From contig NZ_ASHX02000001.1 of NCBI RefSeq assembly GCF_000478605.2, positions 3,821,895 through 3,885,894 of the forward strand: a DNA stretch of 64,000 bases, in the 5' to 3' direction. Each line of letters opens with the position of its first letter. Position 1 is the first letter of the stretch. Both the position numbers and the translations under genes were made by a program. Below are positions 1 through 15,404 of the stretch, piece after piece. The stretch is from Streptomyces thermolilacinus SPC6. GTDB taxonomy: Bacteria; Actinomycetota; Actinomycetes; Streptomycetales; Streptomycetaceae. Below the pieces are notes generated by a model. That model had not been told where the DNA came from, did no database searches, and worked only from the letters and a program-made list of their open reading frames with translations.

Positions 1-54
1 ACGTTGGCTGAGTTCCACCGCCGCATCCTAGGCCCGCCTCACGACGGGCCGTGA
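1..54 (+). CDS. 3' end of an unidentified gene (partial)
   Basis: An open frame enters the window at base 1 and stops at TGA 52-54. It encodes the last 17 residues, ending LGPPHDGP, of a protein whose body lies outside. The composition is compatible with a real C-terminus, but it is too short to assign. It would overlap, tail to tail, the end of the small minus-strand gene at 39-227. Confidence 0.3.
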   Translation, partial: TLAEFHRRILGPPHDGP

Positions 55-227
55 GCCGCCCGCTCGGCCGTCCGGCAGCGGGGGCGGGCGCAGGGCGGCC
101 AGACGGAGGTGTGGAGGGGCGGCAGCTTGTCGCGGCTGTGGACGACGGTACGGTCCCCCCAGGTCCGCCCCCCGTCCGGCGAGACGCGCAGCGTGAGTAC
201 GGGGCGGCTTTTCTCCCGCCCGCTCAC
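39..227 (-). CDS. 62-aa conserved small protein, translationally coupled
   Basis: This small gene starts at GTG 227 and its start overlaps the stop of the upstream 65-aa gene as GTGA, so the two are probably translationally coupled. The product has the motifs DGGRTWG, TVVHSRDKLPPLHTS and WPPCARPRC, with a Cys pair near the C-terminus. The family is not one I can name. The strongest support that it is real is a second copy inside this window: residues 8-52 match the last part of the XRE-type regulator at 14433-15404 with about 40 of 45 residues identical. That points to a family normally encoded beside such regulators. The function is unknown. Confidence 0.6.
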   Translation of the reverse strand: MSGREKSRPVLTLRVSPDGGRTWGDRTVVHSRDKLPPLHTSVWPPCARPRCRTAERAAHGPS

Positions 228-421
228 GGGTGCGCCTCCGCGTGCCGCCGCAGCAGGACGTTGCAGTCGGAGACGGCCGACAGGTCTCCCTGGTCCCGCG
301 CCCCGCCCCGTAAGAGGGCCAAGGCGGCGCAGTCGGCGCACCCGTCGACAGGCGCCGGCCACCGCTGGGGCAGCGGGAGGTCCGCCATCACCGCCGAGTG
401 GCTCCACGTCTCGTCGTTCAT
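224..421 (-). CDS. 65-aa small protein upstream of the coupled gene
   Basis: The ATG at 421 is preceded by a good Shine-Dalgarno sequence (GAGGAG about 4 nt upstream on the minus strand). The product contains a CADCAAL motif, DLSAVSDCNVLLRRH and several histidines. The Cys-x-x-Cys and later Cys/His residues could bind a metal, but this is inference. It is divergent from the XRE-type regulator at 561 and forms a two-gene unit with the 62-aa gene. Small partner genes beside XRE regulators are typical in Streptomyces. I do not recognise the family. Confidence 0.55.
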   Translation of the reverse strand: MNDETWSHSAVMADLPLPQRWPAPVDGCADCAALALLRGGARDQGDLSAVSDCNVLLRRHAEAHP

Positions 422-560
422 CTCGCTCCTCGGTCGTCGGATTCCGTGCCTTTACGTTCGGTCGGCCACCGGCTGCGCAGTAGGGGCATCGGTAGGGGCA
501 AGTGGTGTCCTGCCGCGTCAACTCCCCGTCCGGGCAGGGGGACGGGGGCATGATGGGCTC

Positions 561-1666
561 ATGGCCATCGGGGAGTTGATCAGGGACCTGCGGAAGGCTC
601 GTGGCTGGTCCCAAGGGCGGCTGCTTCGGAGATCAACGCAAAGTTCGGGACCAACCTCGACCGGGAGTATGTGAGCCGCTGGGAACGTTGCAAGGTGTCA
701 CCCGGGCCCTGCTACCTCCGTTGTCTGTCGGCCGTCCTCGACGTGCCGCTAGCCGTGCTTGAGGGTGAAGTGAAGCGCCGTACGTTCATCAACGATGTCG
801 CCGCAGCCGCCATAGCCCCCGTCGTGGCGTCCGACCTGCTCAGCGCGGGGTTCACGGCGCGGCTCGGCAAGGGGCCGACCCCGGACGACTGGGAGGCGAA
901 GCTCGCCACGTACGGGACCGAGTACATGAGCCTCGGCGCCGCCGACATCCAGCGCCGGGTGGCGGGCGAGCTCGTGGTGGTGCAGCAGCAGCCGGACAGC
1001 CCCCGGCTGTGGTCCGTCGCCGCCCGGCTCATGACCCTGTACGCCAAGACGTTCCCCGGCTCCGACGGCTCCAGGGCGGTCAACTGGTACCGCATGGCCG
1101 CCCGTGCCGCCGACGAGTCCGGGGACGCCGACGCCCGGGTGTGGGTCCGGGGCCGGGCCGCCATCGCGCTCGGGTACGAGGGCGCGGCCCTCGGCGTCGC
1201 CGACATGCTGGCCGACCAGGCCATGGCCATCAGCGACCGGCCGTCGCTCGGCCTGCTGAACGCCGTCTTCGGCAAGGCGCACGCCGCCGCGCTGCGGGGC
1301 GACACGGACACGGCGCGGCGGCTCATGGACGAGGGGCGCCGCCTGTTCGACAAGGCGGGTTCGTACGAGCAGACCAGCGACTACGCCGTGCCGTGGTGGC
1401 GACTGAACGTCTTCGTCTCCCTGCTCGCCGCCCGCCTCGGTGACGAGGCCACGGCGGTCGCCGCCCAGGACGCGGCCCGCCGCGAACTCCCGGCGGAACT
1501 GCCCCGGTTCGCCACGCACCTGGACCTGCACTGCGGCCTCATGCTCGCCCGCTCCGGGGACGTGCCCGCGGGAGTGGCCCAGGCCCGCGCCGCCCTCGAC
1601 GCCCTGCCCCCGGACAAGCACTCCCTGACCCTGCGGCTGCTGATGGCCGAGGTGGAGCGGGCCTGA
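561..1666 (+). pseudogene. XRE-type transcriptional regulator interrupted by a frameshift
   Basis: Translation from ATG 561 gives a normal helix-turn-helix beginning (MAIGELIRDLRKARGWSQ). The frame then fails after base 623 and ends in junk at TGA 671-673. One frame over, the reading resumes at GAG 629 as EINAKFGTNLDREYVSRWER and continues to TGA 1666 with a TPR-like all-alpha body that includes a VKRRTFI stretch. One base appears to be missing at about 621-625, where CTG-GCT-TCG would be expected. Reconstructed, the protein would be about 368 aa, close to the size of this Streptomyces regulator family. It may be a true frameshift, a sequencing error or recoding. Translation could also restart at GTG 671, giving a 331-aa protein without an intact DNA-binding head. 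Confidence 0.75.
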
Positions 1667-1913: not shown

Positions 1914-2186
1914 ATGGTAGGGAGCGAGCTCAACCCCTCCGACCATCCGAAGAAGGAGGTCCGCCGCGCTCTGGAGCGATGGACGGACGAGGGTTGGACA
2001 TTACGCAAAGAGGGGCATTGGGGCCGGTTGTACTGCCCGTGTGAGGCGCGGTGCACCACCATCCCCATCTCCGGGTCGCCTCAGAACGAGGGGGCTCACA
2101 TACGCCGGATCAACCGGTTGGCGTCTCGCTGCCCCCTTCCGTCGGACGCCGCGAACCGCAGCCTGACGGGACGGCCGCGCGCCTAG
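1914..2186 (+). CDS. 90-aa HicA-like small protein (possible toxin), contains TTA codon
   Basis: ATG 1914 is preceded by a purine-rich GGGGGTGG about 8 nt upstream. The product has the layout of the small actinobacterial proteins that resemble HicA mRNA interferases: PKKEVRRALE, then GWTLRKEGHWGRLYC with a His where HicA has its catalytic His, then a SGSPQNEGAHIRRI stretch. Two Cys pairs are present (CPCEARC). Leu in GWTL is encoded by TTA at 2001-2003, which in Streptomyces makes translation depend on the bldA tRNA; I saw no other TTA codon in the recognised genes. It lies just upstream of a helix-turn-helix protein gene. A toxin role is inference from fold-like similarity and context. Confidence 0.65.
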   Translation: MVGSELNPSDHPKKEVRRALERWTDEGWTLRKEGHWGRLYCPCEARCTTIPISGSPQNEGAHIRRINRLASRCPLPSDAANRSLTGRPRA

Positions 2187-2278: not shown

Positions 2279-3199
2279 ATGGACTACGACTTCACCTTTG
2301 TCGTCTCCGGCGTGGACGTGGATGACCAAGCCGCCGTCGAAGCCTTGCTGGAGAACTGCGACGCATTGTTGGCCCGAGCCGGCGGCGTGGACATGCTCAG
2401 CATCACCGGCTCCGGCGCCTCGGCTCTCGAAGCGGCATTGAACGCCGTGTCCTCCGCCCGCGCGGTCGTCCCGCGACTGAAGGTGTGCCGACTGGACCGC
2501 GACCTGGTCGGTGTCCACGAGATCGCCGAGCGGACGGGGCGCACGCGCCAGAATGTCAGCCAGTGGATCGCCGGAGCCCGCAAGGGGCAGGGGGCGCCGT
2601 TCCCCGCCGCCGAGGGAACCGTCGGCAGGTCCCAGGCCTGGCTGTGGAGCGAGGTCAACCAGTGGCTGGCCGGGCATGGTCTCGACGACGGGGTCGCGTA
2701 CCCCACGCGTGCCGAGATGGCGGAGATCGATGTCGCCCTCGCCAACGCGGTCACCCTGCACTTCACCGCCGCTGACACGCCCGGCTTCGAGGCGGGGCGC
2801 GACAGGGTGGTCCAGGAGCTCGAGAGCAAGCACCTCTCGGGGTTCATGAAGTATCTGGCTGGCCTCGATCGCACTACCGGCGTGCGAGGAGGCCACGTGC
2901 TGCTGGTCGCCGACGCGGCGGAACCGGCTCGCGGAGTGATGGAGTGCGTTTCCAGCTTCGACCATGACGTCATCCTGGTGACGGCGACGGACCAGTTCAC
3001 GGCCACTGTGCTCTCCACCCGCGCTCCACTGGGGCCGACAGCGGTCATCACCGTGCCCCGGGAGGCAACGGTCGGCGACTGGCTGAGCCTGGTGCAGGAC
3101 AACCCGCAAGCGGCGTTCGCCCCGGAGGGCCCGGAAGGTGCGGAGGCGGCCGCGAAGGAAGTGCCCACGATCCGGCGCCGCCTCGCCATCGCCGCATAG
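2279..3199 (+). CDS. Helix-turn-helix protein with extra C-terminal domain
   Basis: ATG 2279 has an AGGGGG ribosome-binding site 6 nt upstream (2267-2272). The 306-aa product has three parts: residues 1-70 are a small alpha/beta region (DYDFTFVVSGVDVDD); residues 74-133 are a winged or AlpA-like helix-turn-helix (VHEIAERTGRTRQNVSQWI, then a WLWSEVNQWL recognition tail); residues 140-306 are an additional domain that I do not recognise, with a hydrophobic VLLVADAAEP segment and an acidic Ala/Glu-rich linker. As I recall, shorter relatives of about 160 aa are often found beside HicA-like small genes. It probably represses the module through the palindrome at 2223-2244. The extra domain is the unusual part. 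Confidence 0.7.
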   Translation: MDYDFTFVVSGVDVDDQAAVEALLENCDALLARAGGVDMLSITGSGASALEAALNAVSSARAVVPRLKVCRLDRDLVGVHEIAERTGRTRQNVSQWIAGARKGQGAPFPAAEGTVGRSQAWLWSEVNQWLAGHGLDDGVAYPTRAEMAEIDVALANAVTLHFTAADTPGFEAGRDRVVQELESKHLSGFMKYLAGLDRTTGVRGGHVLLVADAAEPARGVMECVSSFDHDVILVTATDQFTATVLSTRAPLGPTAVITVPREATVGDWLSLVQDNPQAAFAPEGPEGAEAAAKEVPTIRRRLAIAA

Positions 3200-4796: not shown

Positions 4797-7700
4797 ATGC
4801 CACCCACCCTGTGGAGCAGACGACGCCTCCTCACCACGCTGACCGCCATGACCGCCGCCCCCGCGCTGCCCGGCGTGCTCACCCTCGCCGCCGCACCCGC
4901 GTACGCGACGGACACCAGCGGCATACCCGACCGGCTTCCGGCCACCGAGCGGGCGCGGGCCGTGTGGGCCTACCGCACCGGCGGCCGTGCCGTACGCCAG
5001 GCCGCCGCCGAGGCGCTGGCCGGGGGCGCGGCCCAGATCACGGCCTTCCTGAACGGCGGGCTCGCCGCCGCCCAGGCCGAGGACAACCGTTTCGCCGTGT
5101 TCCAGGGCCTCGCCTGGGCCGGCAGGTCCGTCCAGGCGGCCGGGCAGGAGGCACTGGCCGCCGGTGACGAGGCGATCGCCGCGTACCTGAAGGACGGCTT
5201 CCGGACGCCGCTCAAGACCGATCTGCGGGTCGAGGTCTTCCGCGTCATGAACAGCGGCGGCAGGGCCGTACGCCGGGAGGCCTCCGCCGCTCTGACGACG
5301 GACACCCGCGAGGCACTGGAGACGTTCCTCAACGAGACGCGGTTCACCGCCCAGGACGAGGACGAGCGGGTCGAGATCTTCAGCGTCCTCGCCTCCGCGT
5401 CCCCCGAGGTGAAGAAGTACGCCGAACGGGCGCTCGCCGACGGGTCCCCGAAGGCCATCCACTGGTTCCTCACCACCGGCCAGCACATCGCCCGCGCCCG
5501 TGACGAGGAAACCGCCACGATCGAGCAGCTCGTGGCGATCGTGGAGCGCGAGGGCAAGCAGGCCAAGCTCAAGACGGACAAGGCCGTCGCCGCCTCCAAC
5601 CAGGCCAAGGAGGCAGCGGCCAAGGCGAAGGAGGCCGCCCTCACGGCCGCCGCCGAGGCGCAGGCCGCGCAGAACGACGTCCGCAAGTCGGCGAAGGCCG
5701 CCGACAAGGCCGCCGACGCCGCGCGCGGCGCCGCCAGCGCGGCACAGACCGCGATCAGCGCCTCCCGGGCCGCCCAGTCCGCCTCGCAGCGGGCAGCGCG
5801 GGCCGCGCAGGCCGCCGCCGCGGCCGCCGCGCAGGCGGGCCGGGCCGCGTCCCGCGCCTACCACGCGGCCATCGCCGCGTCCGCCGACGCCAGCAAGGCG
5901 TCCGCCGCGCGCCAGGCCGCCGAAGGCGCCCGCAACGCCGCCGCCAAGGCCCGTACCGCCGCGGCCGCCGCCCAGCAGGCGTCCCTCGCCTCCTCGCAGG
6001 CGTCCGCCGCCGGTGCCGCGGCCGCGTCCGCCGCGGGCAACGCCGCCGCGGCCGCCAACGCCTCCGCCGACGCCGCCGCGGCCGCCGGTGCCGCCACCGA
6101 CCAGGCGCGCCGGGCCCGCGAGGCGGCCGCCGAGGCCAACGCGCAGGCCGCCCGCGCCAGCAGCGCCGCCGCCCTGTCCCAGCGCCTCGCGGGCGCTTCC
6201 GCCGCCGCGGCGGCCGAGGCGCACCGGGCGGCCAACTCCGCCGCCGACCACGCCGACAAGGCGGCCGCGGCGGCCGAGGAAGCCGCGCGGTACGCCGGGC
6301 AGGCCATCGAGTACGCCAAGCGGTCCACCGCGTACGCCGACGCGGCCTACCAGGCGGCCACCACCGCCGCCGACGCGGTCAAGAAGGCGCAGGAGGTCGA
6401 GGCGGCGGCCCGCGCGGCCGAGGCCGAACGGATCCAGCAGGACACCGAGATCGGCATCGTCGCGGCCCGGCTCAAGGCCGCGCAGGAGAAGGCGGCCCTG
6501 GAGCGGCTCTCCCGGCAGCGCACCCAGAGCGAGCAGACCTCGCAGGAGATCACCGCCCTCGTCGAGCAGGCCCAGAGCGCCCTGGCCGCCGGGGACGACG
6601 CCCGGGCCGTGGAGCTGGGCCGCAAGGCGGCCGTCATGCTCCTGGACAGCCACGGCACCTGGACCCGCGAGGCGGCCGAGTTCGCCCTCGCGGGCGGCGA
6701 CTACGAGATCCTCAACTGGATCGACGCCGACCGGCTCGCCGCGCAGCAGCAGGACGACCGGGAGACCGTTCTCGCCGTCGCCCAGGTCGCCGCCCCGGAC
6801 GTCGCGGCGGCCGCGCAGAGCGCCCTGGAGAGCCAGGACACCGGCGCGGCGAGCCGCTTCCTCGCGCAGGGCATGACGGAGGCGGCGGCCACCGAGAACC
6901 GGGTCACCATCTTCAAGATCCTGAGCCAGGACCCCGGCCCGGCGGTCAAGGCCAAGGCCCAGGCCGCGCTCGACGACGGCAGCCCCGAGGCGCTGTTCCG
7001 CTTCCTGAGCACGGAGTACGCCGAGGCGGTCAAGGAAGACGACAACGTCGAGATCTTCCGCATCCTCAACACGGGCGGCGCCTACCTGAAGTCCGCGGCA
7101 CAGGTCGTGCTGGAGGGCTCCGCCCTGATGCGGCGCTCGTTCGTCGCGCACGACCAGTACAACGTGGCCCGCCTCGACCAGGACGCCGAGGCCCATGTCG
7201 CGGCGATCCGGGCCTCCATCGCCCACGCCGCCCGCGTCGCGCAGAAGGCGCTGGAGGACGCCGCGTACGCCCTCAAGGCGGCGGCGGAGGCCCGCAAGGC
7301 CGCCACCGAGGCGTCCAACTGGGCGGCCAAGGCGAAGGGTTACGCCGACGCCGCGGCGGCCGCCGCCACGGAGGCCCGGGACAACGCCGCCGCCGCCGAC
7401 GCGTGGGCCGCCAAGGCCGCGGCGTCCGCGACCCAGGCGAAGGAGGCGGCGGCCGTCGCCCGTACCGCCGCCCGGACCGCGAACTACTCCGCGAACCAGG
7501 CGTACGCCTCCGCGGGCCAGGCGCAGGCGTCGGCCCACTCGGCGGCGCAGTCCGCGGCGCAGGCCCGCGCCGCGGCGACGCAGGCGGGCCAGGACGCGCG
7601 GGCCGCCGCGGCGGCGGCGAGCGACGCGCACCGCATCGCGCAGCAGAAGCGGCAGCAGGAGATCGCCGCGGCGGCGGCCGAGGCGGCGCGCAAGGCCCGG

Positions 7701-8195
7701 GAGAACCAGCAGAACGGCACCAACCCGGCCGACACGCCCGACAGCGACAAGAACAAGGCCAAGGAGGACGCCGAGTTCCTCGGGCTGACCGCCGACCAGT
7801 GGACGACGTGGTCCGGCCGCATCAGCACCGTGGCCGGGACGATCTCGGCCGCCGCCGGTGGCGCGGCGCTGATCGCCGCGATGATCCCGGGCGGCCAGCC
7901 CGTCGCGGCGTTCCTCGGCGGCGTGTCGGTCATCGCGGGCGGCATCTCCGTGCTGGCCGGCGGCGTGAACGTCATCGCCACCGGGTTCTCGGCGGGCTGG
8001 GGCAGCGCCGACTTCAACAAGTCGCTGGGAACTTTCGCGGTGAGCGCGCTGTTCTTCGGTAAGGGGCGCGCGCTGAGCTGGGCGTCCAAGCGGGTCGAGG
8101 GGCTGAGCGGCATCGCCGACGAGGTCGGCACGAAGGTGTCCGGCTTCCTGGAGGACACCGCGACGGCGGCCATCGGATGGCTGAACTGGAGCTGA
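4797..8195 (+). CDS. Tat-exported ALF-repeat / coiled-coil giant protein
   Basis: ATG 4797 is preceded by GAAAGGAAAGG. The 1132-aa product begins with a twin-arginine signal (WSRRRLLTTL, cleavage near AYA-TD, residue 38). Residues about 40-240 and 604-780 carry short repeats of the ALF type (ALADGSPKAIHWFL, ALDDGSPEALFRFL), known from Streptomyces exported proteins. Residues about 244-581 and 798-971 are extremely Ala-rich heptad regions, predicted long coiled coils. A hydrophobic Gly/Ala segment (about 1011-1068, including AALIAAMIPGG) precedes a 65-residue tail ending IGWLNWS. In related actinobacterial proteins ALF and Ala-rich stalks carry polymorphic toxin domains. Here no nuclease or HINT domain is visible, so the tail may be membrane-active or a truncated effector. 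A membrane protein gene follows at 8292. Confidence 0.75.
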   Translation: MPPTLWSRRRLLTTLTAMTAAPALPGVLTLAAAPAYATDTSGIPDRLPATERARAVWAYRTGGRAVRQAAAEALAGGAAQITAFLNGGLAAAQAEDNRFAVFQGLAWAGRSVQAAGQEALAAGDEAIAAYLKDGFRTPLKTDLRVEVFRVMNSGGRAVRREASAALTTDTREALETFLNETRFTAQDEDERVEIFSVLASASPEVKKYAERALADGSPKAIHWFLTTGQHIARARDEETATIEQLVAIVEREGKQAKLKTDKAVAASNQAKEAAAKAKEAALTAAAEAQAAQNDVRKSAKAADKAADAARGAASAAQTAISASRAAQSASQRAARAAQAAAAAAAQAGRAASRAYHAAIAASADASKASAARQAAEGARNAAAKARTAAAAAQQASLASSQASAAGAAAASAAGNAAAAANASADAAAAAGAATDQARRAREAAAEANAQAARASSAAALSQRLAGASAAAAAEAHRAANSAADHADKAAAAAEEAARYAGQAIEYAKRSTAYADAAYQAATTAADAVKKAQEVEAAARAAEAERIQQDTEIGIVAARLKAAQEKAALERLSRQRTQSEQTSQEITALVEQAQSALAAGDDARAVELGRKAAVMLLDSHGTWTREAAEFALAGGDYEILNWIDADRLAAQQQDDRETVLAVAQVAAPDVAAAAQSALESQDTGAASRFLAQGMTEAAATENRVTIFKILSQDPGPAVKAKAQAALDDGSPEALFRFLSTEYAEAVKEDDNVEIFRILNTGGAYLKSAAQVVLEGSALMRRSFVAHDQYNVARLDQDAEAHVAAIRASIAHAARVAQKALEDAAYALKAAAEARKAATEASNWAAKAKGYADAAAAAATEARDNAAAADAWAAKAAASATQAKEAAAVARTAARTANYSANQAYASAGQAQASAHSAAQSAAQARAAATQAGQDARAAAAAASDAHRIAQQKRQQEIAAAAAEAARKARENQQNGTNPADTPDSDKNKAKEDAEFLGLTADQWTTWSGRISTVAGTISAAAGGAALIAAMIPGGQPVAAFLGGVSVIAGGISVLAGGVNVIATGFSAGWGSADFNKSLGTFAVSALFFGKGRALSWASKRVEGLSGIADEVGTKVSGFLEDTATAAIGWLNWS

Positions 8196-14192: not shown

Positions 14193-14432
14193 GCCCTGTC
14201 GAGGCTCACCCACGGGCACAGCCCCCGTCCGCCTAAAGCGTCTCGCCCGCCCCCTTCACCGCGATGCCCCTGCGGGATCGAGCTGTCGGCTTCGTCGCAC
14301 GCGTCCTTCCCCGACGGACGTCTTCTCAGTCGGCAGACCGAGACAGCTCTGGCCGGATCGACTACCCCCTACGGGTGCTCATAGGCGCCGGGGATCCTGT
14401 GGCGGCCTCCTCCCGCGCGTACGCTCGGCCTC

Positions 14433-15404
14433 ATGCCTGCCAACTTGGGTAACCGGCTCAGGGACGTGCGGAAGCGGCGCGGGCTGACGCAGTCGGGGCT
14501 CGCGCGCGAGTCCGGGGTCTCCGTGTCGCTCATCCGGAAGCTGGAGCAGGGCGAACGGCGCGACGCGCGCCTGGAGACCGTGCGGCGCCTCGCCGCGACG
14601 CTTCGGGTGCCCACCTCGTCACTCGTGGTGGAGCCGGCCGAGGAAGGCGCGACCACGGCCGTACTCGACGCGTGGGAGCCCGTCAGGAAGGCCCTCACCG
14701 CACCGGCCGCCGACATGACCGACCTCGACGAACCGCCCACCGCGCAGGGCCTGAGCGCGGCACTCGACGCCGCCGTACTCCTCTTCTCCGGCGACCGGTT
14801 CGCGGAGTTGCGCGCCGTCCTGCCCGCCCTGCTGCGCGACACCGCCGTCCTGGCCCGGCTCGACCCGGAGGGGCACCCGCTCCTCGTACGCCTCTTGCAG
14901 CTCACCGGATGGCTCCTGACGCAGACCCGCCAGTTCGAGGCCGCCGAGTGGGCCCTTGGGATCGCGCTCGACGGATCGGCGGACCGGCTGCAAGGGGCCT
15001 CCACCGTCAGCACGACGTGCTGGCTCCTCCTGCGCCAGGGCAGGCTGGGGGAGGCCCGCGAGCTGGCCGCACGGTGGGCCGACGAGACGGAGCCGCGCCT
15101 GTCACGAGCGACGCCGGACGAACTGGTCGCCTGGGGATGGCTGTTGCTGCGCCTGTCGGCTGCCGCCGTGCGGGACAACAGGCCCGAGGAGGCCGAGGAC
15201 GCCCTGCGGCTGGCCCACGCCGCCGCCGTGGCGATGGGCAGGGAGTTCGCCCAGCGTCCCCTCCTCACCCTGCGGGTCTCGCGGGACGGCGGGCGCACCT
15301 GGGGTGAGCGGACGGTCGTCCACAGCCGCGACAGGCTCCCGCCCCTCCACACATCCGTCTGGCCGCCCTGCGCCTGCCCCCGGTGCCGGGCGAGGGGTGA
15401 CTGA
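14433..15404 (+). CDS. XRE-type regulator fused to a tiny-protein copy (chimera)
   Basis: ATG 14433 is 7 nt after a -10-like TACGCT (14420-14425) with no Shine-Dalgarno, so the mRNA is probably leaderless. Residues 5-65 form the helix-turn-helix (GNRLRDVRKRRGLTQSGLAR, then SVSLIRKLEQGERR). Residues about 70-270 are the helical repeat body of this regulator family. After the AMGREFA motif, where relatives continue for roughly another 100 residues, the frame switches to RPLLTLRVSRDGGRTWGERT and ends WPPCACPRCRARGD. That tail matches the 62-aa protein at 39-227 over about 45 residues with 5 differences. An in-frame deletion joining the regulator to a downstream small gene is the likely origin. 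The gene ends 7 bp from the convergent tricorn gene. Confidence 0.8.
   Translation: MPANLGNRLRDVRKRRGLTQSGLARESGVSVSLIRKLEQGERRDARLETVRRLAATLRVPTSSLVVEPAEEGATTAVLDAWEPVRKALTAPAADMTDLDEPPTAQGLSAALDAAVLLFSGDRFAELRAVLPALLRDTAVLARLDPEGHPLLVRLLQLTGWLLTQTRQFEAAEWALGIALDGSADRLQGASTVSTTCWLLLRQGRLGEARELAARWADETEPRLSRATPDELVAWGWLLLRLSAAAVRDNRPEEAEDALRLAHAAAVAMGREFAQRPLLTLRVSRDGGRTWGERTVVHSRDRLPPLHTSVWPPCACPRCRARGD

Follow-up and report, generated by a model that had tools for sequence, protein, structure and literature searches.

A translationally coupled microprotein pair in the putative regulated slot of WhiJ-like XRE loci of Streptomyces

At one end of a 64,000-nucleotide stretch of the Streptomyces thermolilacinus SPC6 genome (referred to here as the window), two very small overlapping genes, s65 and s62, diverge from an XRE regulator gene that carries a frameshift. 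What are such genes, and do they belong with the regulator? We consider it probable that they encode two coupled microproteins and form a cassette which, like abaA or iosA, fills the regulated slot at XRE loci of the WhiJ-like kind. The features of the locus are:

39–227, minus strand: s62, a 62-aa microprotein gene, second gene of the pair, with a GTG start that has 4 nt in common with the s65 stop
224–421, minus strand: s65, a 65-aa microprotein gene (CxxC...HxxxH), leading gene of the pair, with an ATG start
481–500: box I, TAGGGGCA-TCGG-TAGGGGCA, two 8-bp direct repeats with a 12-bp period
528–560: site of a second box found in many relatives right before the xreA start, degenerate in the window (from an alignment of upstream regions)
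561–1666, plus strand: xreA, an XRE/TPR-like regulator gene, frameshifted, divergent from s65

A sequence-only reading of this DNA had pointed out 65-aa and 62-aa genes overlapping by GTGA beside an XRE regulator, and both the coordinates and the four common bases were confirmed. The two proteins are confirmed members of two genuine small-protein families, not chance ORFs. The genes are also adjacent in other species, with ≈35–76% identity by tblastn where most of the protein aligns. Among the named loci having both families, s65 came first in 45 of 49, with the order s62-s65 in the other four, and an ATGA or GTGA overlap in the s62 frame was present at 44 of the 45 loci with the order s65-s62. 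Both families are under purifying selection: the median pairwise dN/dS was 0.29 for s65 (35 non-independent pairs) and 0.16 for s62 (40 non-independent pairs), and a frame-shifted control yielded a median of 1.45 from just four usable s65 pairs and had no usable s62 pair. The window s65 (P0001) and s62 (P0002) matched no Pfam or NCBIfam model, and neither matched DUF397 (PF04149); aligned members of the families gave only weak Pfam matches (best E 0.0088) and no NCBIfam match at E 0.01. No second s65 was found in the 64-kb window or, by profile, in the window's genome, and no sigma-70-type promoter was found at window positions 380–700.

In a 16-row alignment of s65, residues C28, C31, R42, D46, H60 and H64 are invariant. 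In a 43-row alignment, C31 and H60 are invariant, C28, A41, R42, D46 and V55 are conserved in at least 90% of rows, and H64 in fewer than 90%. The AF2 model (mean pLDDT 82, with blocks 21–60 at 89–96) is a helical hairpin made up of helices 29–44 and 47–63. C28 and C31 are placed at the opening of the first helix and H60 and H64 at the close of the second, and therefore both pairs should lie at the same end of the hairpin, judged by position along it. On this model, s65 is a candidate metal-clamped helical hairpin, with the Cys and His residues as putative ligands of a metal such as zinc. Neither Foldseek against the PDB nor a PDB sequence search with s65 returned anything significant. An alignment-based search detected s65 in 138 of 199 same-genus genomes, commonly in multiple copies; the genus was taken as Streptomyces since the named loci belong to it, apart from a few from Actinacidiphila.

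The s62 protein has an Asp-box-like SxDxGxTW motif and a C-x-C-x2-C tail, which reads C-A-R-P-R-C in the window copy, where the middle Cys (C48) has been replaced. In a 68-row alignment, T12, R14, V15, S16, D18, G20, P44 and C46 are invariant, and C48 and C51 are conserved in at least 90% of rows. The AF2 model (pLDDT 76, pTM 0.42) has strands at residues 9–13 and 27–30 and a low-confidence helix at 49–58. Foldseek found nothing significant in the PDB, the top match being a 17-residue stretch of a sialidase with an E value of 5.5. A single-sequence search placed s62 in 56 of the 199 same-genus genomes, including the window's own. With the alignment as query, matches were found at the family level in 35 of 150 genomes and nine of 17 genera, some by weak matches alone, and at the class level in 29 of 394 genomes, of which 17 were of the same genus and 12 from outside the family. 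The matches in those 12 genomes were weak (E 1.5e-5 to 9.9e-5) and lay inside long frames of 436–1265 aa; we read them as Asp-box motifs belonging to larger proteins. With the single s62 sequence as query, no homolog was found in the genome contig collection; the alignment-based search of this collection gave 140 stretches, the best 80 of which make up the named s62 set, which is biased towards the window's s62.

The description of the regulator that diverges from the pair as broken was borne out. The start and first HTH residues of xreA are encoded in ORF 51–674, and the remainder (P0003, 671–1666) is in another frame. The frameshift falls within the region coding for the HTH, and the xreA genes of most relatives read through it. 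The frameshift could be an error of sequencing or assembly in a system that is intact, since the remainder is open for 331 codons and reaches 84% identity to its relatives; the degenerate second box fits a relaxed constraint, which argues against such an error, yet a degenerate box occurs also in relatives with an open xreA. We regard an error as possible, but rather unlikely.

The start codons of s65 and xreA lie 60 and 80 bp, respectively, from the beginning of box I, and the box is the sole match to its own pattern in the window at ≤2 mismatches, where 0.03 would be expected. The exact pattern TAGKGGCA-N4-TAGKGGCA had eight matches in seven of the 199 genomes, all eight preceding the start of a P0003 match by 122–174 bp, while the matches to a control pattern with the repeat reversed were scattered over many genomes. 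Homologs of xreA were found in 18 of the 199 genomes, at 19 loci including the window's, and two more loci that were retrieved later both carry the exact repeat. A looser pattern, TAGKGKSA twice, derived from the very upstream regions that were scored, matched with ≤1 mismatch at 15 of the 19 loci, and 12 of these 15 matches sit 79–82 bp from the start; the pattern was missed at L182, L187, L189 and L190. (L191 and L192 were excluded from this count; the L191 genome holds an exact match.)

A divergent s65 was detected by profile at seven of the 21 xreA loci (the window's, L175, together with L178, L179, L180, L181, L184 and L185) and at neither of the two retrieved later. At L187 an s65 lies at a greater distance from xreA, and upstream of xreA there is another small CxxC-H-H ORF at L177 and a small CxxC gene at L190. 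Because nine of the 14 loci lacking a profile-detected divergent s65 still carry the repeat, the repeat speaks mainly for control of xreA itself. Of the 21 loci, only the window's was found to have an s62 next to xreA. The link between xreA and the repeat is thus strong and that between xreA and s65 partial, and a link to s62 is so far seen in the window only. Judging from this distribution, box I is operator-like, and we infer that it is bound by XreA.

To what extent do the two families accompany XRE regulators in general? Forty s65 loci, about every fourth among the matches listed with a few substitutions, and therefore covering the better matches, were compared with 40 control positions generated by a coordinate shift, of which 24 were in the sampled genomes and 16 in other genomes of the set, unmatched for chromosome arm. 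(One s65 locus, L233, is interrupted by a contig end.) Both sets were scanned alike with HTH and DUF profiles that we built from the regulators and neighbours near s62, xreA and xreB; the training set included the regulators of three of the 40 loci (L196, L224 and L228). An XRE HTH was present within 1.5 kb at 32 of the 40 s65 loci, compared to one of the 40 controls (Fisher p ≈ 2e-13), and at 29 of 37 when three loci already represented in the search alignment (L194, L196 and L198) were left out; eight of the 40 had no XRE within this distance. Within the same 1.5 kb, DUF6879 was found at 17 s65 loci and no controls, DUF397 at 14 and none, and s62 at four and none. Within 3.5 kb, the counts were 33 versus two for XRE and 14 versus one for DUF397. 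The earlier proposal of a regulator and small-partner system agrees with these counts, the arrangement recurring in other genomes, and the contrary prospect, that there would be no homologues next to XRE regulators elsewhere, clearly failed. The pattern is in fact wider than first proposed.

Among the 32 XRE-adjacent s65 loci, 18 have s65 divergent from the regulator, 5' to 5', with a DUF6879 gene of the regulator's cluster intervening in six of them, 13 have s65 downstream on the same strand, and one has another arrangement. The downstream loci, ten of which have a gap of 57–109 bp between profile matches, suit a reading in which s65, s62 or both interact with the XRE protein and alter how it binds DNA, as a sensor or anti-regulator and not as an output, much as the DUF397 protein SCO4542 has been proposed to act on WhiJ. 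The presence of several regulator classes (DUF5753, xreA and xreB) might likewise be expected if the partner contacts a part that they have in common. However, DUF397 genes lie within 1.5 kb at the 14 loci counted above, so that s65 adds to DUF397 and is not a substitute for it, and the 18 divergent loci have s65 in the slot of abaA and iosA, not in that of bldB. We consider a co-regulator unlikely, and the coupled cassette in the regulated slot remains our preferred reading.

The neighbourhoods of s62 are similar in kind. Within 2.5 kb of the named s62 loci (the best 80 of 140), and by our own profiles, a DUF5753-type XRE or a DUF6879 gene was present at 42, an xreB-type XRE at 12 and neither at 26; s65 was within 700 bp at 49, and 29 had a DUF397-like gene, again within 2.5 kb. 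Pfam searches of representative neighbours returned DUF6879 and HTH_31-DUF5753, and DUF397 for one small neighbour; the commoner, 74-aa small neighbour had a DUF397 match just under the cut-off (22.8 of 24 bits). At five loci (L134, L142, L146, L151 and L152), an s62 with no detected s65 diverges from an XRE-DUF397 pair, and s62 may therefore be able to occupy the regulated slot alone. One genome (G105) has eight s62 matches, among them those at L045, L062, L063 and L064; several come with an s65 and some adjoin XRE-DUF6879 clusters, which points to local amplification.

The window contains a second copy of s62, at what we call site 2:

14433–15404, plus strand: P0004, an in-frame xreB-s62 fusion consisting of residues 1 to ≈270 of an XRE/TPR-like regulator and an s62 core
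15237–15389, plus strand: the second s62 core, 84% identical to s62 residues 3–52, forming the tail of P0004
15412–19047, minus strand: tricorn protease, site 2 marker, also in S. somaliensis

This copy had previously been described as fused to another XRE regulator. The second copy exists, but it contains s62 alone, with no s65. Nor does the fusion serve as evidence for a regulator and small-partner system, because in six relatives xreB, s65 and s62 follow one another as distinct genes on the same strand: S. roseolilacinus (L075), S. somaliensis (L076), Streptomyces sp. DH12 (L114), Streptomyces sp. TRM49041, S. benahoarensis and S. pacificus (the last three accounting for L078, L082 and L102). 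By our own gene calls, the full xreB in these relatives is 376–396 aa long, and it is 74–85% identical to that of the window over the first 262 residues. With separate genes in all six, the fusion is best explained as the product of a deletion that would have run from the last part of xreB through the whole of s65 into the beginning of s62, and a Rosetta-stone argument from the fusion was rejected. Recent gene conversion between the two s62 copies is not supported either, the DNA of the fusion copy being 87% identical to the first copy, compared to 86% and 85% to those of S. roseolilacinus and S. somaliensis. The S. somaliensis operon adjoins a tricorn protease gene and a 195-aa TetR-like gene, as does the fusion in the window. 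In a PADLOC scan, the HTH part of P0004 was the sole match. Before xreB in the window (≈14415–14434) and in the six relatives there is a similar stretch, of the GCGTACTCTCGGCCT type, that ends at the start codon and looks like a conserved core promoter.

The surroundings of the pair itself, site 1, are also conserved, and are marked by two genes:

1914–2186, plus strand: 90-aa gene, also in S. roseolilacinus, with no Pfam match
2279–3199, plus strand: 306-aa HTH-like protein gene, 78% identical in S. roseolilacinus, with no Pfam family above cut-off

These two genes are conserved together in S. roseolilacinus and may be an undescribed two-gene module; the 90-aa protein presumably resembles HicA-like proteins. 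Further along the window, positions 4797–8195 (plus strand) encode a protein of 1132 aa in which seven ALF short repeats (PF03752) were matched and which has, by eye, a twin-arginine-like start.

In S. roseolilacinus, xreB-s65-s62 sits between the genes that flank the pair in the window, with genes for 90-aa, 305-aa and 327-aa proteins on one side and, on the other, genes that we take to be exonuclease III-like, GNAT-like and protease-like. In TRM49041 and DH12, xreB-s65-s62 adjoins the exonuclease-like gene as well. In the s62 tree, both window copies cluster with the xreB-linked s62 of L075, L076 and L114 (support 0.88). The window s65 clusters mainly with xreB-linked s65 (support 0.64), in a group that includes L108, L128 and L129, where xreB was not seen; its closest partner is a 23-residue fragment from S. 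somaliensis (support 0.89), and the xreA-linked s65 of L180 (48% identical) has no firm place in the tree. S. pacificus and TRM49041 have an xreA at another place in their genomes, and none was detected in the S. roseolilacinus, S. somaliensis and S. benahoarensis genomes. From the site 1 synteny and the tree grouping we infer, with moderate strength, that the pair in the window derives from an xreB operon, and that xreA, together with its repeat, replaced xreB at this site.

The history of the two sites bears on whether the pair in the window is a decaying remnant of mobile regulator clusters that has no function now, a reading that concerns the window copy and not the family. The frameshift in xreA, the deletion in the site 2 copy and the lost middle Cys of the window s62 are all in line with decay. 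Against this, neither ORF is interrupted, the window retains the coupling and an intact box I, and the family has a low dN/dS; we think it improbable that the pair is a mere passenger. A type II toxin–antitoxin system, with the XRE protein as antitoxin and repressor and s65 or s62 as the toxin, would fit an XRE gene with small coupled genes and an operator-like repeat, and XRE-DUF397 pairs have been predicted to be toxin–antitoxin systems (PMC4239341), but it is very unlikely, since the putative antitoxin is frameshifted in the window while the pair is still open, s62 is retained without s65 at site 2, and the related XRE-DUF397 pair Scr1/Scr2 showed no such behaviour when tested (PMC6262351). 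In S. somaliensis (L076 4660–4930) s65 is frame-broken, while its xreB and s62 are open, and in DH12 (L114 4986–5169) s62 is split over two frames, with the neighbouring xreB and s65 open; a broken s65 or s62 beside an open regulator is neutral on the toxin–antitoxin reading.

We thus return to the coupled cassette. In the mechanism that we propose, s65 and s62 would be translationally coupled and carried in the regulated slot of XRE loci in Streptomyces and its close relatives. The XRE protein encoded next to them would bind direct-repeat operators and control the pair, whether the two genes have a divergent promoter or lie downstream in the regulator's own operon, and s65 and s62 would be the output arm of the switch, or its feedback partner. 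In the window, XreA would recognise box I at 481–500 and control both its own gene and s65-s62; since XreA is now frameshifted, the pair is probably outside its control. An xreB-s65-s62 operon would be ancestral, replacement of the regulator at site 1 would have put the pair under the XreA operator, and the xreB copy at site 2 would have lost s65 by deletion, giving the fusion. The families, the coupling, the adjacency and its geometry, the operator-like repeat with its link to xreA, and the synteny are all computed; the direction of control and an action through protein–protein contact are proposed. More generally, and as a tentative though plausible extension, a metal-clamped s65, often co-translated with an Asp-box/CxCxxC s62, may be a common, unrecognised output arm of XRE switches, with cassettes that swap regulator classes and a new regulator that captures the pair by bringing its own operator. 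The pair looks like a real, undescribed part of XRE switches, even though its own switch gene is broken in the window. A conserved small cassette in a regulated slot with an operator-like repeat would provide a directly testable output for WhiJ-like switches.

How does the pair compare with known systems? The SxDxGxTW motif of s62 resembles the BNR/Asp-box repeats of sialidases, and PF02012 weakly matched eight of 24 members (best E 0.0088). These repeats occur several times in a propeller, whereas s62 has one motif, no propeller and a C-x-C-x2-C tail; given the single motif and the low-confidence model (pTM 0.42), we rejected a sialidase fragment. P0003 weakly matches the NsdA family model NF053720 over residues 29–314, but at 36.2 bits, compared to a curated cut-off of 75, which places this frameshifted remainder outside the family. 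Literature searches on DUF6879, on Asp-box small proteins in Streptomyces and on NsdA with tetratricopeptide, subscription papers being outside their scope, found no paper. Genes like s65 or s62 are not named in the available parts of accounts of whiJ, bldB/DUF397, abaA and iosA (PMC10294661, PMC4255298, PMC10364602, PMC6262351, PMC12243394, PMC8939145, PMC4239341). Scr1/Scr2 and other XRE-DUF397 pairs of S. coelicolor also combine an XRE regulator with a small partner in a single locus; the partner, however, is a DUF397 protein, and the portions seen mention no s65- or s62-like third gene.

There is a further likeness to the WhiJ/AbaA/BldB clusters. The whiJ locus acts on development, and nothing was known of WhiJ targets at the time of one review (PMC4255298). 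The locus had earlier been called reminiscent of but different from WhiJ-type clusters. The difference holds for the window, where neither P0003 nor P0004 matches DUF5753, placing its regulators in other XRE classes, where no HTH_31-DUF5753 regulator adjoins the pair, and where the DUF397 profile found no DUF397 gene within 1.5 kb of xreA (L175); it does not hold for the family, since 42 of the 80 named s62 loci (the best 80 of 140) lie in or beside WhiJ-type clusters, with DUF5753-type XRE or DUF6879 genes, DUF397-like genes are near s62 at 29 of the 80, and HTH_31-DUF5753 regulators are adjacent at many family loci. s65 and s62 themselves are neither DUF397 nor HATPase proteins, and no Pfam or NCBIfam model scores them above its cut-off. 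At several loci, s65 diverges from an XRE-DUF397 pair, which is the place of abaA or iosA (PMC10294661). According to the same source, the XRE regulator of iosA-whiJ9-bldB9 in S. venezuelae binds direct repeats in the intergenic gap. The repeat sequences differ from box I, and IosA is a predicted 15-kDa basic protein, whereas s65 and s62 are ≈7 kDa each and coupled; the arrangement of a small gene adjoining an XRE regulator, with direct repeats in the gap, is the same in both (PMC10294661).
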